The notes under the pieces are model-generated. The model worked only from the letters and a program-made list of their open reading frames with translations. It was not told where the DNA came from and did no database searches. The translations under genes were made by a program, and so were the position numbers. 43,638 nt of DNA from Bacteroidales bacterium (GTDB lineage Bacteria > Bacteroidota > Bacteroidia > Bacteroidales > JAAYJT01), in contig JAAYJT010000046.1 of NCBI GenBank assembly GCA_012522795.1, positions 1-43,638 on the forward strand. The letters are read 5' to 3'. Position 1 is the stretch's first letter, and each line of letters starts with the position of its first letter. Below are positions 6,890-38,985 of this stretch, one piece after another.

Positions 6890-6897
6890 CAAAATTA
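6890..6897 (-). promoter_or_regulatory. -7 box (TAATTTTG) 6 nt upstream of the OstA-like ATG
   Basis: On the minus strand the order is TAATTTTG, then CCGGCA, then the ATG at 6883. In Bacteroidota transcription usually starts a few bases after this box. The mRNA would then begin at or next to the start codon. Confidence 0.45.
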
Positions 6898-7037
6898 CAT
6901 AAAGCTCCGGGTAAGATATATGAGTAAACGAAATTAAGGGTTTTGGTATTGCCTGTTTTAATCAGACCCTAATGTGTTAACACGCCTATGAGTATTAATG
7001 CAAGGCTTGGTTAGTAAGACGGGATGGATGTTATCAC

Positions 7038-7565
7038 ACCCCTTCAGGGTTTGGGTTATGTTTGCTATTGTGTCTTTTATAATCATTTCACCTCTTCGAG
7101 GTTTTGGTTATTTCAATATCTGGTGTTTTTTTAATTCCGATATTTATTGGTAAGTCCCGAAGAGATGATATTTTTATAGCATATAATGGTTACACATGTT
7201 CATAACCCCGAAAGGGTGAAATAGTTAATACAGCCAATCATGTTGTAATCATGCCACCCCTTCAGGGTTTGGTTATGTTTGTTATTTTGTCTTTTATAAT
7301 CATACCACCTCTTCTAGGTTGTATTGGTTATTTTAATGTCTGGTGTTTTTTATAATTCCGATATTTATTGGTGAATCCCGAAGGGATGATATATTTATAG
7401 CATAAAATGGTTACGCATGTTTATAACCCCGAAGGGGTGAAATAGTTAATACAGCCTATCATGTTGTAATAATGCCACCCCTTCAGGGTTTGGGTTATGT
7501 TTGTTATTGTGTCTCTTATAATCATATCACCTCTTCGAGGTTGTGTTGGTTATTTTAATGCTTGG
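7038..7565. repeat. ~220-bp tandem repeat, about 2.4 copies, with GGGG-type palindromes
   Basis: Unit 1 starts at 7038, unit 2 at 7256 and a partial unit 3 at 7477, so the period is 218 then 221 bp. Each unit opens with ACCCCTTCAGGGTTTGG. It continues through TGTCTTTTATAATCAT and ATTCCGATATTTATTGGT, then a CCCGAAGGGATGAT-like motif. It closes with ATAACCCCGAAGGGGTGAAAT. Copies differ by scattered substitutions and 1-3 base indels. The short palindromes (CCCCTTCAGGG, ACCCCGAAGGGGT) recall the intergenic GC-rich palindromes seen in many Bacteroidota genomes. No open reading frame runs through the array. Confidence 0.85.
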
Positions 7566-7827
7566 TTATACTGCATCGTTTCTTTTTCTGTGCTTATGCA
7601 CAACATCTTTTAGGCAGGTAAAGATAAAACTTTTTTGAACGTAAAATATAAAAATTGAAAGGAAGAGATGGGCAATGGAGAATGGAGGGTTGATGTGTAT
7701 GTGAAAATAATGGCATTCGGTAAAACCATTGTACTCCTTTGGGATAATTCACATTTGTAGGGTGTTTTTTAAAGCCTTTTATTCTTTTTTGATGAGCCTG
7801 TTTCAGTCATTGACAACATAAAATACC

Positions 7828-7835
7828 TAATTTTG
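7828..7835 (+). promoter_or_regulatory. -7 box for gatE (TAATTTTG)
   Basis: A perfect TAnnTTTG match lies 33 nt upstream of the gatE ATG. A TTGAC begins at 7810, roughly where a -33 element could sit. It probably drives the gatE, peptidase and gatD operon. Confidence 0.5.
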
Positions 7836-7868: not shown

Positions 7869-9833
7869 ATGCCGGCAGAACTTGATCCCCGCCTGAACTA
7901 TGAAGCCACCAAAGAAGCCATTGGTTATGTTTCGCGCCATAATGCCACCCAAAGTGATTACGACCGTTTGGGTTTCATGTCGGGTCTTGAAGTACATCAG
8001 CAACTTAATACCTCCCGGAAACTTTTTTGTCGCTGCCCAACGGGAATATATCAGGAACCTGATGACTATGATGCTGAAATTATACGCCACATGCGTCCCA
8101 CTCTTGGTGAATTAGGCGAGCACGACAGTACGGCGTTAATGGAGTTCAAAACCAGAAAGACAATTATTTACCGCGTAAAAGGCTCTACTGCCTGCACTTA
8201 CGAAATTGACGATGCAGCTCCATTTCTTATTAACCAGGAAGCTCTGGCACAGGCTATTGAAATTTCGCTGTTGTGCCGTTTAAACATTGTTGGCGAAGTC
8301 CATATTACCCGAAAACATTATCTTGACGGAAGTATCCCCGCTGGGTTTCAGCGTACTGCAATAATTGGCGTTGAAGGCGAAATCCCGCTGAAAGACAAAA
8401 ACATTCGGGTTATTCAGCTATGTATTGAAGAAGATACCTGTCGCGAGGTTTCTGACAAAGGTCATGTCAGAGTGTTCAGAACTGACCGCATGGGAATGCC
8501 ACTCATTGAGATCGTAACCTATCCTGATATGGTTAACCCCGACGAAGTCATGGAAGCCTGCAATTATATCCGTTTTTTGAACCGCAGCACCGGAAAGGTT
8601 CGTACCGGAATGGGAGCCGCCAGGCAGGATGTAAACGTTAGCTGCAAAGGCGGTGCACGTGTGGAAATAAAAGGAGTGGCTCATACCAAATGGATACCTG
8701 AACTTACTCATAATGAGGTATTCAGGCAGTATGCATTGTTAAATATCAGAGCCAGATTGCTTGAATCATACCCCGATTGGAAAAATTGGAAAATATCTTC
8801 ACAAAAAATATCACGCAAAGACATCCAGTTCAAATATGAACCACTGGCTTTTGCTCAACGCGACAAACTAACAGTTTATGCTGTTAATCTGCCCGGATTT
8901 AAAAGTATTTTGTCTCATTTTACCCAACCCGGTAAAATATTCGCCGATGAGATAAGCGACAGAATAAAGGTAATCGCTTGTATTGACAAACCTAATATGG
9001 TTCATTCAGAAATGATCAATTCAGTTTTAGAACCGGAAACCATTAAGAAAATCGAATCATTGCTGCACGCTAAGGAAAATGATGCTCAGGTTATAATCTG
9101 GGGACCGTCCGGTGATATCCCTACAGCTCTTGAAACCATTGAAGAGCGATGTATTCTTGCTTTTCAGGGTGTACCGAAAGAAACCCGTAAATCATTTAAG
9201 GATGGTACAACCATCTTTGAGAGAGTGCTGCCGGGTGCCAACCGTATGTATCCTGATACTGATTCTCCACCCATCCCGCTAAAGGATGAACATATTGAAG
9301 AAATAAGAAAACAATTACCCGAAGATGTTATTGACAGATATCATAAACTTAAAAACTGGAATGTGCCGGAAGACACCTATATCTATATTTTTAAGAAAAA
9401 TCTTTTTCCGCTTGCAGAAAGGATAGTAAATGAATTAGATGTACCTCCATCATTCTGTGGAACTTTCTTCGGACATACTCTGAAAAACATAGAAGGGCGT
9501 TACAAACCCTCGTCTGCATTTAATTATAAGACTATTTACGGACTTTTTAAATTTCTGAAAGAAAAAGGACTGGATTTTGAACTTGCCAAGAAAATGATGC
9601 CAGTGGTTTATCAATATCCAAAAATGGAATTTGATTCGGTGCTGGTCAACATAAATTATAAACCGGTTAAGAAAAAAAATATCATAGACCATATTTCTTT
9701 TCTGAAGAAAAAATTCATTCCAAAACGAAACCATCGTAACCCAAATGATGAAAACAACTGGATAATGGGGCAATTAAGGCAGGCTGCCATTGGTAACATG
9801 TCTTTAACCGAATTAGCACAACATCTTAAATAA
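7869..9833 (+). CDS. gatE: Archaeal-type glutamyl-tRNA(Gln) amidotransferase subunit E
   Basis: This 654-residue protein is the tRNA-binding and kinase/transamidase subunit of GatDE, which converts Glu-tRNA(Gln) to Gln-tRNA(Gln) in the cytoplasm. The GatB/GatE cradle domain is clear: GLEVHQQLNT at about 39-48, then KLFCRCP. Next come HYLDGSIPAGFQRT, LCIEEDTCRE and the diagnostic GMGAARQDVNVSCKGGARVE. Residues from about 310 form the AspRS-like insert that distinguishes GatE from GatB, followed by a GatB-type tail ending in NWIMGQLRQAA. The length is close to archaeal GatE (about 620-640). The gene is followed after 12 nt by an M28 peptidase gene and then by gatD. GatDE is classically archaeal, so its presence here suggests ancient transfer (inference). 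Confidence 0.93.
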   Translation: MPAELDPRLNYEATKEAIGYVSRHNATQSDYDRLGFMSGLEVHQQLNTSRKLFCRCPTGIYQEPDDYDAEIIRHMRPTLGELGEHDSTALMEFKTRKTIIYRVKGSTACTYEIDDAAPFLINQEALAQAIEISLLCRLNIVGEVHITRKHYLDGSIPAGFQRTAIIGVEGEIPLKDKNIRVIQLCIEEDTCREVSDKGHVRVFRTDRMGMPLIEIVTYPDMVNPDEVMEACNYIRFLNRSTGKVRTGMGAARQDVNVSCKGGARVEIKGVAHTKWIPELTHNEVFRQYALLNIRARLLESYPDWKNWKISSQKISRKDIQFKYEPLAFAQRDKLTVYAVNLPGFKSILSHFTQPGKIFADEISDRIKVIACIDKPNMVHSEMINSVLEPETIKKIESLLHAKENDAQVIIWGPSGDIPTALETIEERCILAFQGVPKETRKSFKDGTTIFERVLPGANRMYPDTDSPPIPLKDEHIEEIRKQLPEDVIDRYHKLKNWNVPEDTYIYIFKKNLFPLAERIVNELDVPPSFCGTFFGHTLKNIEGRYKPSSAFNYKTIYGLFKFLKEKGLDFELAKKMMPVVYQYPKMEFDSVLVNINYKPVKKKNIIDHISFLKKKFIPKRNHRNPNDENNWIMGQLRQAAIGNMSLTELAQHLK

Positions 9834-9845
9834 CAGGCACTTAAA

Positions 9846-11126
9846 ATGAAAAACAGATTAATTAGGAATATAAGTTTCATAGCTGCATTATTTTTATTTG
9901 CAGCACCGACATTGCATGCTCAGCAGCAATATGTGTATAATTCAGATATTGACAGCGTAATTGCTTATTATACTGATAAAATTGACCCGGATCAAATTGC
10001 TTCATACATGCAGGAGCTGGAAAATATGGGTACCAGATTTTGTCTTGCTGAAAACAGAAAAGAAGTAGCTGAGTGGATACAAAATAAATTCATAGCATTT
10101 GGCTATCCTGACACTTATCTGGATTCATTCCTGATGATCAATACTTATCAGGGAATTTCCTATGAAACCTGGCAATACAATGTTATAAGCTCTATCTCCG
10201 GTCATTCCCGTCAGGACGAAATTTATATTCTTGGAGCACATTATGACGATATCATTTCACAACCGGGTAACCCGTTCATAATAGCTCCCGGAGCCGATGA
10301 CAATGCCAGTGGTGTTGCTGTTGCCCTTGAAGTGGCACGTGTTATGAAAGAATATAATTATCAACCCGAAGCAACTATAAAATTTATAGCTTTTGCAGCC
10401 GAAGAAGTAGGTTTGAAAGGAAGCTGGAATTATGCTGAAAAGGCTTTTGATAATAATACGGATATAAAAATGATGATCAACAACGATATGATCAGTAATA
10501 ATACTGCACCTGAGGAAGATTGGAGGTTTAAGCTGTATAAATATAATGAGGCAGAATGGCTGGCTGAACTTGCCAAATATATTGCATTGAATTTCACAAC
10601 ATTAAATGTTGAAGAGTTTGTTCATACCTCTGCAAATACTGATAGCTGGCCCTTTCATCATTACGGATACAGTGCGGTATTTCTTCATGAACATGAATTT
10701 TCGCCATACTATCACTCGGTAAACGACTTGGTAGTTAATACAAACAAATATTATGCTGCTGAATTAACAAAAGTATCACTTGGTATGCTGGTGCATGAGA
10801 ACGGTACCGGAATTAATGTAAATGGCATAGCTCCTATTTTATCTGTTAGTTCAAGGCTTTATCAGAACTTTCCAAATCCTTCTTCGGGTCATACAACAAT
10901 TAAATATTCATTATCAAAACCCGAAAAAGTTACTTTACAGATATTTGATGCTGCAAACCGTTTGATGGCTGTATTGTATGACGGATGGCAGGAAACCGGT
11001 ACACATCAGATCATTTTTAACACTTCTGATCTGGCTTCGGGAATATATTTCTGTCGCTTGCAAACAGATAATAATTCAGCTACAATTAAAATGGCAGTTT
11101 ACAGGCAGGATCTCACAAAAAACTGA
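9846..11126 (+). CDS. Secreted M28-family metallopeptidase with T9SS C-terminal sorting domain
   Basis: This 426-residue protein has a signal peptide (about 1-25, ending LHAQQQ). The M28 zinc aminopeptidase domain covers about 50-325. The expected ligands are present: His132 (LGAHYDDI), Asp151 (PGADDNASG), Glu186/Glu187 (FAAEEVGLKGS), Asp214 (NNDMIS) and His290 (YYHSVND). The last ~85 residues are a type A T9SS sorting domain (LYQNFPNPSSGHTTIKY through ASGIYFCRLQ). The protein is therefore probably exported and attached to or released from the cell surface. It lies 12 nt after gatE and 46 nt before gatD on the same strand. That is an odd place for a secreted peptidase, since the flanking genes act in cytoplasmic tRNA charging. 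Confidence 0.88.
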   Translation: MKNRLIRNISFIAALFLFAAPTLHAQQQYVYNSDIDSVIAYYTDKIDPDQIASYMQELENMGTRFCLAENRKEVAEWIQNKFIAFGYPDTYLDSFLMINTYQGISYETWQYNVISSISGHSRQDEIYILGAHYDDIISQPGNPFIIAPGADDNASGVAVALEVARVMKEYNYQPEATIKFIAFAAEEVGLKGSWNYAEKAFDNNTDIKMMINNDMISNNTAPEEDWRFKLYKYNEAEWLAELAKYIALNFTTLNVEEFVHTSANTDSWPFHHYGYSAVFLHEHEFSPYYHSVNDLVVNTNKYYAAELTKVSLGMLVHENGTGINVNGIAPILSVSSRLYQNFPNPSSGHTTIKYSLSKPEKVTLQIFDAANRLMAVLYDGWQETGTHQIIFNTSDLASGIYFCRLQTDNNSATIKMAVYRQDLTKN

Positions 11127-11172
11127 AACAACTGATTGATTAATAATTTGTCCTTATCAACTAAGTATAATA

Positions 11173-12558
11173 ATGAGCGATGATTTTTTTCAGGGATACA
11201 AAGGCAAGGCACTCAAAACGCTAAAAAAATATCAGGTCAGGGTTTGGGGGCATGTGCATGTGAACACAACAAGGGGTGTTTTTCATGGTACTATACTGCC
11301 ACGAGCCGAAAATGACGACAGCAACCATATTGTTTTAAAGATCCCAAGCGGTTATAATTTGGGCATCAATGTTGCCAATATCATTGAGATGACCGAAACG
11401 GACTATAAAAAAGTATCATATAAAATTGCTGAAAAGAAATTCCCATTTTCTCCTGAATTACCAAACGTAAAATTATTTGGCACCGGAGGCACTATTGCTT
11501 CCCGTCTCGATTATCGTACCGGAGCTGTAATTCCGGCATTTTCGCCGGGTGAATTATATGGTTCTGTACCCGAATTGGCATCCATTTGTAATTTATCAAC
11601 AGAAAAATTATTTTCGATCTTCAGCGAAAACATGGGTCCTGATCAGTATAGAAAGCTTGCAATAGCCATTGGCAAAGAAATTGAATCAGGCATTGATGGC
11701 ATTGTTATCGCTCACGGTACTGATACTATGCATTATACTGCTGCAGTTCTAACATTTATGGTTCAGAACCCTCCAATCCCCATTGTTCTTGTAGGCTCGC
11801 AACGTTCATCCGACCGTCCCAGTTCCGATGCCGCACTGAATCTTATGTATGCTACCACAGCCGCAGGCCACGGCAATATTGCAGAAGTTATGGTTTGTAT
11901 GTTTGGATCTACTTCTGATAAATATGGATTTTTACACCGGGGAACAAGGGTGAGGAAAATGCATTCATCATGTCGTTCCACTTTCCGAACCCTCAGCGAC
12001 CATCCCCTTGCTACTGTTACTCTTGATGGTGTTAAACCTTTAAAATCAAAATACAACCAGAGGAGAAAAGACAAAAAAGTAAAAATCCTTCCCTTTTTTG
12101 AAGAAAAAGTTGCACTTGTGTATTATTACCCCAATATGCAGCCCGATATTATCGAAATGATGATTGAGCGGGGTTACAGGGGTATTATTATTGCCGGAAC
12201 CGGCCTGGGACACATAAACAAACCTCTTTATCCTGCAATTGAAAAAGCTGTTAAAAACAATATTGCTGTTTACATGACGGTTCAAACCTTATGGGGTTAT
12301 GCAAACATGTTTGTATATGAAACAGGACGAGATTTAATTGCAAAAGGTGTAATTCCTGCTGAGAATATGCTACCCGAAGTCGCCTACATAAAACTGGGCT
12401 GGGCTTTGGGTCAGACAAGCGACCTTGAAGAAGTAAAAAGGATCATGTTAGCCCCTGTAAATGACGACATTACGTTGCGTGAACCATATAATGGCTATCT
12501 TGTTTATCAGGGTGGAGTTCCTGAGGTTGAGGAATTTATCCGCAAAGTACATAAATGA
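11173..12558 (+). CDS. gatD: Archaeal-type glutamyl-tRNA(Gln) amidotransferase subunit D
   Basis: This 461-residue subunit is an L-asparaginase-like glutaminase that supplies ammonia to GatE. An N-terminal SH3-like GatD-specific domain (about 1-90, VRVWGHVHVNTTRGVFHGT) precedes the asparaginase fold. Catalytic motifs are intact: GTGGTIAS (residues 103-110), HGTDTM (181-186, with Thr183 and Asp184), and Lys262 in RGTRVRKMHSS. The N-terminal domain and its adjacency to gatE separate it from ordinary AnsA/AnsB asparaginases. It is probably co-transcribed with gatE and the intervening peptidase. It is slightly longer than typical archaeal GatD. Confidence 0.93.
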   Translation: MSDDFFQGYKGKALKTLKKYQVRVWGHVHVNTTRGVFHGTILPRAENDDSNHIVLKIPSGYNLGINVANIIEMTETDYKKVSYKIAEKKFPFSPELPNVKLFGTGGTIASRLDYRTGAVIPAFSPGELYGSVPELASICNLSTEKLFSIFSENMGPDQYRKLAIAIGKEIESGIDGIVIAHGTDTMHYTAAVLTFMVQNPPIPIVLVGSQRSSDRPSSDAALNLMYATTAAGHGNIAEVMVCMFGSTSDKYGFLHRGTRVRKMHSSCRSTFRTLSDHPLATVTLDGVKPLKSKYNQRRKDKKVKILPFFEEKVALVYYYPNMQPDIIEMMIERGYRGIIIAGTGLGHINKPLYPAIEKAVKNNIAVYMTVQTLWGYANMFVYETGRDLIAKGVIPAENMLPEVAYIKLGWALGQTSDLEEVKRIMLAPVNDDITLREPYNGYLVYQGGVPEVEEFIRKVHK

Positions 12559-24870: not shown

Positions 24871-24941
24871 TGTCCGATGGTGTAATGGTAGCACTGCAGA
24901 TTTTGGTTCTGCCTGTCTAGGTTCGAATCCTAGTCGGACAA
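24871..24941 (+). tRNA. tRNA-Gln, anticodon UUG
   Basis: This 71-nt gene folds into a standard cloverleaf. The acceptor is TGTCCGA/TCGGACA. The D arm is GTGT-AATGGTA-GCAC. The anticodon stem is GCAGA/TCTGC with loop TTTTGGT, so the anticodon is TTG at 24903-24905. The variable loop is 4 nt and the T arm is CTAGG/CCTAG. The first pair is U1-A72 and the discriminator is A. The 3' CCA is not encoded. U1-A72 is the bacterial identity pattern for tRNA-Gln. This matters because the same window encodes the archaeal-type GatDE. It is followed at once by a strong terminator. Confidence 0.97.
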
Positions 24942-24944
24942 CAT

Positions 24945-38823: not shown

Positions 38824-38985
38824 TTTAATTAATTTTAGTTTGCCCTTACTCTTACGTTTTTCAGGATAACACGTCTTACTCTTTAAAGGATTTTCGGTTA
38901 ACTCCTTTTTTTACCTTTATGGATTGTCAGCCCTTAATTTGACTTTAAATTGTTTTTTTAAAAAGATAAAAATGAATATGCGAAG

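Follow-up and report, generated by a model that had tools for sequence, protein, structure and literature searches.

A stretch of 43,638 nucleotides from a Bacteroidales bacterium (positions 1 to 43,638 of contig JAAYJT010000046.1, assembly GCA_012522795.1), here called the window, carries the genes for both subunits of GatDE, a Glu-tRNA(Gln) amidotransferase, in a genome that also encodes glutaminyl-tRNA synthetase (GlnRS). With a probability of roughly 0.6, GatDE would be a working amidotransferase in this cell, serving beside GlnRS as a second route to Gln-tRNA(Gln) and cleaning up the errors of glutamyl-tRNA synthetase (GluRS). The enzyme itself is known; its setting is undescribed in the searchable literature. 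The accessible part of a 2022 review states that GatDE is restricted to archaea (PMC9499178), and the archaea-only distribution from which the first-pass annotation of the window started is, in that respect, the published view.

GatE, GatD and direct charging in one genome

In archaeal GatDE, ammonia is set free by GatD, an asparaginase-type glutaminase that draws on glutamine and perhaps on asparagine. GatE activates the glutamate carried by Glu-tRNA(Gln) and amidates it, yielding Gln-tRNA(Gln). In the window, gatE (7869..9833, + strand) encodes 654 amino acids comprising a catalytic cradle, an insert region and a C-terminal tail, and gatD (11173..12558, + strand) encodes 461 amino acids comprising a GatD_N domain and an asparaginase-type glutaminase. 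Both open reading frames are complete, running from an ATG at 7869 to a TAA at 9833 and from an ATG at 11173 to a TGA at 12558. In NCBIfam profile searches, GatE reached 467 bits with NF003107 (cut-off 456) and 408 bits with TIGR00134 (cut-off 319.55; model positions 3-603 of 622 aligned), and GatD 500 bits with NF003217 (cut-off 310) and 494 bits with TIGR02153 (cut-off 324). GatE remained far under every GatB cut-off, the best GatB model giving 129 bits versus a cut-off of 338. Pfam recognized GatB_N, the cradle common to GatB and GatE, in GatE, and PF18195, PF00710 and PF17763, i.e., GatD_N and both asparaginase domains, in GatD. The motif GLEVHQQL begins at residue 39 of GatE, and GatD contains TGGTIAS at residue 104, HGTDTM at residue 181 and a lysine at residue 262.

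Alignment with archaeal rows showed that GatD retains 66 of 69 archaeal-invariant columns and GatE 72 of 93, at mean identities to these rows of 42.7% and 29.3%, respectively. Among solved structures, 2d6f and 1zq1 provide the GatE and GatD chains nearest in sequence. An AlphaFold2 model of GatE (mean pLDDT 90, pTM 0.78) was used to search the PDB, and the three best matches were all GatE chains, led by 1zq1_C and 2d6f_D with TM-scores of 0.83 and 0.79 when normalized by target length and of 0.66 and 0.64 by query length. By its sequence and predicted fold, the pair is a true GatDE and not a GatB plus an asparaginase, and the first-pass annotation was right to describe two full-length subunits with intact motifs.

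The assembly of the window genome (2.88 Mb, 100 contigs, 97% complete) encodes a full-length, uninterrupted GlnRS at G000:C48:7824-9410 (783 bits, cut-off 425.8), a full-length asparaginyl-tRNA synthetase (AsnRS) and, as judged from the search with the GlnRS model, one GluRS. A profile search of this genome found no GatB over the cut-off. The cell can therefore charge tRNA(Gln) directly, with GatDE kept beside GlnRS, and GatDE is not the sole route to Gln-tRNA(Gln). The first-pass annotation had considered that GatDE might sit alongside another system or be an imported route, and had named the absence of glnS and gatCAB as support for a transferred essential pathway. The former was confirmed by the GlnRS gene. 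As for the latter, the search for gatB was negative, but glnS is present, and a transferred essential pathway is not supported in this genome. Replacement of a missing GlnRS is thereby ruled out for the window genome. A role of GatDE as an Asn-tRNA enzyme was also rejected: AsnRS was over the cut-off in all 36 genomes checked, and the formation of Asn-tRNA is therefore independent of GatDE.

Distribution and descent of bacterial GatDE

In a sample of the order that consisted of 60 genomes from 58 families, including the window's own, GatD was over the cut-off in 26 genomes. GatE was present in 24 of these, in 23 over the cut-off and in one cut by a contig end. GlnRS was over the cut-off in 23 of the 26 GatD-positive genomes and GatB in three. 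An even sample of the phylum (395 genomes) contained 30 with GatE, i.e., the window's own and 29 of another class; no GatE was found in the order's five other members of this sample. The 29 genomes of the other class encode GlnRS in 26 cases and GatB in 22, and the GatE of one of them is identical to that of a Melioribacteraceae genome (L090/L217).

Named genomes were collected with a pattern scan, which sees only DNA matching one motif, favors that motif and gives no frequencies. Among the matches listed, GatE occurs in Bacteroidales, Marinifilaceae, Lentimicrobiaceae, Saprospiraceae, Melioribacteraceae and Ignavibacteria, in Phycisphaerales, Acidobacteriota, WOR-3, Gemmatimonadetes, Cloacimonetes, Fermentibacteria, Zixibacteria, Aminicenantes and Caldisericia, and in archaea; most of the named carriers among these matches are bins. 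Of 26 named genomes taken from the scan, two of them Thermoplasmata by title and with GatD confirmed in part of the set, 22 have GlnRS over the cut-off. When the three sets are joined and G462, which by its coordinates is the same genome as G175, is counted once, GlnRS is found in 70 of 80 distinct genomes positive for GatE or GatD. The assemblies of Marinifilum flexuosum DSM 21950, Perlabentimonas gracilis and Labilibaculum sp. K2S, all titled as strains, combine GatDE with GlnRS, and because of such genomes the question is now open to experiment.

The carriers in which GlnRS was not seen are of several kinds. G036 was dropped as a candidate Bacteroidales genome with GatDE only, since both of its sister genomes carry GlnRS and an assembly gap is likelier. 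G011 (88% complete) and G048 (94%) have no GlnRS over the cut-off; GatB is present in G011 and was not found in G048. The latter, like G014, was scored positive by GatD alone, and its GatD match stops at a contig end. No GlnRS was found in G310, in which GluRS is cut off by the end of its contig; in G114, a member of that genus, glnS sits right behind gltX. In G464, G469, G470 and G475, all from the set of 26 named genomes, GlnRS did not exceed the cut-off, and G464 keeps only a C-terminal piece. Real exceptions are G346 and G373, two 99% complete genomes of one family, which have GatE and GatB and in which no GlnRS was found.

For the GatE tree, 149 of 170 loci (53 + 117) had a reading frame of at least 450 amino acids, and removal of six shorter than 540 amino acids left 143 rows, with a long-branch warning for L109, L201, L256 and L219. 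A fully supported branch separates archaea from bacteria in this tree, and a single Thermoplasmata row falls with the bacteria. When a second Thermoplasmata row was added, both branched off basally to the bacterial sequences (midpoint root; support 100/100 for the branch uniting them with the bacteria and 99/88 for the next). Rooting GatE on GatB left an open three-way fork between Lokiarchaeota, the other archaea and bacteria. For GatD, 110 of 165 loci had a stretch of at least 280 amino acids; the final tree contains 67 rows after omission of 44 of 111, which were near-duplicates or long branches including those of methanogens, and it has no methanogen or haloarchaeal rows. Rooted on asparaginases, whose branch is long, the bacterial GatD sequences, together with a single Thermoplasmata row nested among them, form one group that is sister to Lokiarchaeota (100/99) and lies inside the archaeal range. 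In a quick GatD tree, the three methanogen rows, all long-branched, fell outside.

In the trees, bacterial GatDE forms one deep group that spans many phyla and is 29-43% identical to the archaeal copies, a genuine bacterial branch of the family. The simplest reading would be a single ancient transfer between the two domains, in one direction or the other, followed by spread or loss. Nesting among archaea, which the first-pass annotation had named as a test, was seen for GatD in the tree rooted on asparaginases; a transfer into this chromosome was not, since the deep, multi-phylum clade disfavors a recent import. Two Thermoplasmata bins, L215/L485 (G477, CP070751.1) and L219 (G476), encode an archaeal-type GluRS, GlnRS over the cut-off and a GatE from the base of the bacterial group. 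With these genes, they look like true archaea that have both.

A proposed second route and its alternatives

In the proposed mechanism, GatD would release ammonia from glutamine, and perhaps from asparagine, and GatE would activate and amidate the glutamate of Glu-tRNA(Gln) to Gln-tRNA(Gln), while GlnRS would charge tRNA(Gln) directly in parallel. The single GluRS would at times misread tRNA(Gln), above all tRNA-Gln(UUG), and GatDE would clear the resulting Glu-tRNA(Gln). A gene for tRNA-Gln(UUG) lies in the window itself (24871..24942, + strand; ARAGORN, Rfam RF00005 and sequence), and its product is the likely substrate of GatDE. By hand numbering, it has U1-A72, U11-A24 and U13.G22, and residue 47 is absent. 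The determinants for the GluRS of Escherichia coli include U11-A24, U13.G22, the lack of residue 47 and A46, according to the accessible part of the source (PMC9976931). Because the first three of these features are present, misacylation of tRNA-Gln(UUG) by GluRS is plausible.

The tRNA(Gln) species also differ between genomes. A long D-loop in tRNA-Gln(CUG) was found in 16 of 17 genomes with GatDE and in 5 of 14 without (31 classed genomes; Fisher p 0.0012), and a long form of tRNA-Gln(UUG) in 10 of 24 with GatDE and 3 of 29 without (53 genomes; p 0.011), the long and short labels being read by eye after omission of an odd second UUG candidate in G029 and a truncated one in G013. The association is suggestive only, because it amounts to 2-3 independent pairs for CUG and 1-6 for UUG on the GluRS tree. 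In the window genome, glnS is followed by a tRNA-Gln(CUG) gene in which both the D-loop and the variable loop are longer, at G000:C48:9490-9563 (L034:3167-3240), ~80 bases past the end of the GlnRS match. This linkage with glnS was seen in 6 of 20 glnS loci of the order that were scanned, including those of G001, G002, G051, G008 and G034.

Several observations weigh against GatDE as a second route with a clean-up function. Position 46 of tRNA-Gln(UUG) is a G, versus the A in the listed determinant, and the favorable features are not specific, as relatives without GatDE have them too; hence, they permit a clean-up function and do not prove it. We take Arg358 of the Thermus GluRS to act in discrimination. 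Its equivalent, counted by hand, is an arginine in all 79 readable GluRS rows, genomes without GlnRS included, and the residue is therefore useless as a marker here. Comparison of GluRS columns with the presence of GatDE in 52 genomes gave a best p of 1.6e-4, which was equalled in 1 of 40 shuffles. Nothing in the residue or the column scan points to a non-discriminating GluRS, and GluRS gave no sign in the other direction either. Furthermore, Pfam made no call for the GAD domain of GatE at 1e-3, and G014 has a GatD, no GatE match and another gene upstream on its 3.2-kb contig. The activity of the pair, its substrate, its clean-up role and some misacylation of tRNA(Gln) by GluRS are all things that we infer, and the first of these counts among the weak points. 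Finally, GatE is patchy in the order and would be dispensable, since 13 changes are needed to explain its distribution on a weakly resolved GluRS tree (52 genomes, only four starred branches).

This patchiness (GatD in 26 of 60 genomes) and the presence of GlnRS in most carriers would also suit an active but redundant leftover that predates the takeover by GlnRS and is being lost lineage by lineage. Such a relic seems unlikely. GatE evolves under purifying selection in the single measurable pair (L016 versus L203; nonsynonymous rate dN 0.047, synonymous rate dS 0.919), the remaining pairs being saturated, and intact pairs in distant families together with the wide span of phyla argue for a retained use. 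Moreover, glnS, gatE and gatD are consecutive on one strand in G041 (L382), and glnS adjoins the gatE-gatD pair in G073 (L364); adjacency in these two distant lineages, out of the loci analyzed for neighborhood, fits a leftover poorly.

The bacterial branch might instead amidate another Glu-tRNA or Glu-bearing molecule and no longer act on tRNA(Gln). In GatE of the window, 21 of the 93 archaeal-invariant columns are altered, with eight of these changes falling within the region 346-385; GatD, by contrast, retains nearly all of its own. The altered GatE columns could mean that the substrate has changed. The long stem that leads to the Bacteroidales-type GatE in the trees and the steady co-occurrence with GlnRS are consistent with this. 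However, the motif columns of GatE are invariant across bacteria and archaea in an alignment for which part of the motif had served to find the rows, and no conserved neighboring gene hints at another substrate. A changed substrate is rated as improbable.

Least of the functional alternatives, and a very improbable one, is the import envisaged in the first-pass annotation, in which GatDE and a non-discriminating GluRS would be the main source of Gln-tRNA(Gln) and GlnRS would be idle. The lack of GatB over the cut-off in this genome and the nesting of bacterial GatD among archaea agree with it; the uninterrupted GlnRS gene, followed so closely by a tRNA-Gln(CUG) gene, and the depth of the bacterial clade do not.

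A second route with clean-up is retained as the preferred reading. A broader proposal is more tentative, with odds somewhat short of even: bacterial GatDE might be a conserved quality-control system in cells that charge with GlnRS, in which amidation repairs Glu-tRNA(Gln) and a leaky GluRS is tolerated. If so, an organism with direct charging would deal with misacylated tRNA through amidation instead of hydrolysis, and a GlnRS-plus-GatDE system would extend across many bacterial phyla and into Thermoplasmata.

The locus and known systems

Between gatE and gatD lies a gene, on which the first-pass annotation was silent, for an M28 family metallopeptidase with a C-terminal sorting domain of the type IX secretion system (T9SS) (9846..11126, + strand; Pfam PF04389, TIGR04183). 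The gaps are 12 bases behind gatE and 46 bases before gatD, and with all three genes on one strand they may form an operon, although the peptidase is probably unrelated to GatDE in function. G001, G002 and G029 have a homolog of the peptidase at their gatE loci, in the latter two between gatE and gatD. The G+C contents of gatE (40.8%) and gatD (40.9%) fall within the range of 13 other genes of the window (36.0-42.9%), and both genes occur in two further sampled genomes of the genus, on separate contigs in G001. Since the genes resemble their neighbors in composition and recur in the genus, their chromosomal setting is genuine. That archaeal DNA was binned with a Bacteroidota genome is scarcely credible: the assembly is fragmented (100 contigs) and most carriers among the matches listed are bins, but the T9SS domain next door, the native composition, the genus relatives and above all the three strain-titled genomes, each of which has GatD, largely refute it.

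Of the 97 gatE loci given for neighborhood analysis, some of which are one genome under two names, GatE was clustered in 88. In 64 of these 88, gatE is followed directly by gatD on the same strand; in eight the order is the same with a gap, one was scored as having gatD first and 15 showed no visible GatD. Twelve of these 15 stop within 151 bases. In L369, GatD is on a different contig; in L364 it is present although the clustering missed it; and in L228 there is none within 3 kb. Beyond gatE-gatD, no conserved neighborhood was found in the 97 loci, save one upstream block of four genes, ending at position 6892 of the window, which is common to 8-10 of the 97 loci with the window counted. A possible promoter element, TANNTTTG (7828..7835, + strand), is located 41 bases before the start of gatE and resembles what we take to be the Bacteroidota-type consensus. 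It is a weak candidate at most, as 29 copies of the motif are present on the + strand of the window. Repeats of ~221 bases with palindromic CACCCCTTCAGGGTTTGG cores fill positions 7032-7600, upstream of gatE. Elsewhere in the window, Rfam placed a DUF805b cis-regulatory RNA at 38873-38907 on the - strand (35.9 bits; gathering score 35.6).

A report of GatDE in bacteria was not found in the searchable literature, a body of text that mostly does not reach subscription papers. Since NCBIfam contains models for both subunits, these genes may already bear the names GatD and GatE in protein databases. What is accessible of one paper assigns GatCAB to bacteria and GatDE to archaea (PMC3532385). A 2014 study sorted 366 bacterial genomes by GlnRS, GluRS and GatCAB (PMC3927822); its accessible part takes genomes that lack GatCAB to have a defunct indirect route, hence calls the GluRS of Bacteroidetes discriminating, and gives no sign that GatDE was looked for. 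As far as the accessible texts go, both this inference and the archaea-only statement (PMC9499178) need revision. Many bacteria have GatDE together with GlnRS, as do, by these data, two Thermoplasmata bins. The archaea-only premise, which the accessible part of the review uses in its account of the last universal common ancestor and of why archaea never adopted GlnRS (PMC9499178), thus rests on an incomplete distribution.

Compared with known systems, the window pair has the same two subunits, domains, motifs and fold as the archaeal GatDE of Methanothermobacter (2d6f) and Pyrococcus abyssi (1zq1). The host is different: whereas archaea have an A1-U72 tRNA(Gln) and no GlnRS, as stated in the accessible part of the review (PMC9499178), the window pair belongs to a bacterium that has GlnRS and whose tRNA(Gln) carries U1-A72. 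Bacterial GatCAB catalyzes the same class of reaction, and GatE and GatB have the catalytic cradle (GatB_N) in common; in contrast, the window GatE lies far below the GatB cut-offs and comes from a genome in which no GatB exceeded them. In Bdellovibrio, Deinococcus and Thermus, AsnRS and GatCAB form a dual route to asparagine, as described in what is accessible of the source (PMC4206432). This is an earlier example of a bacterium that keeps an amidotransferase in addition to a direct synthetase. That route employs GatCAB and a non-discriminating aspartyl-tRNA synthetase, whereas the case here concerns glutamine and GatDE.

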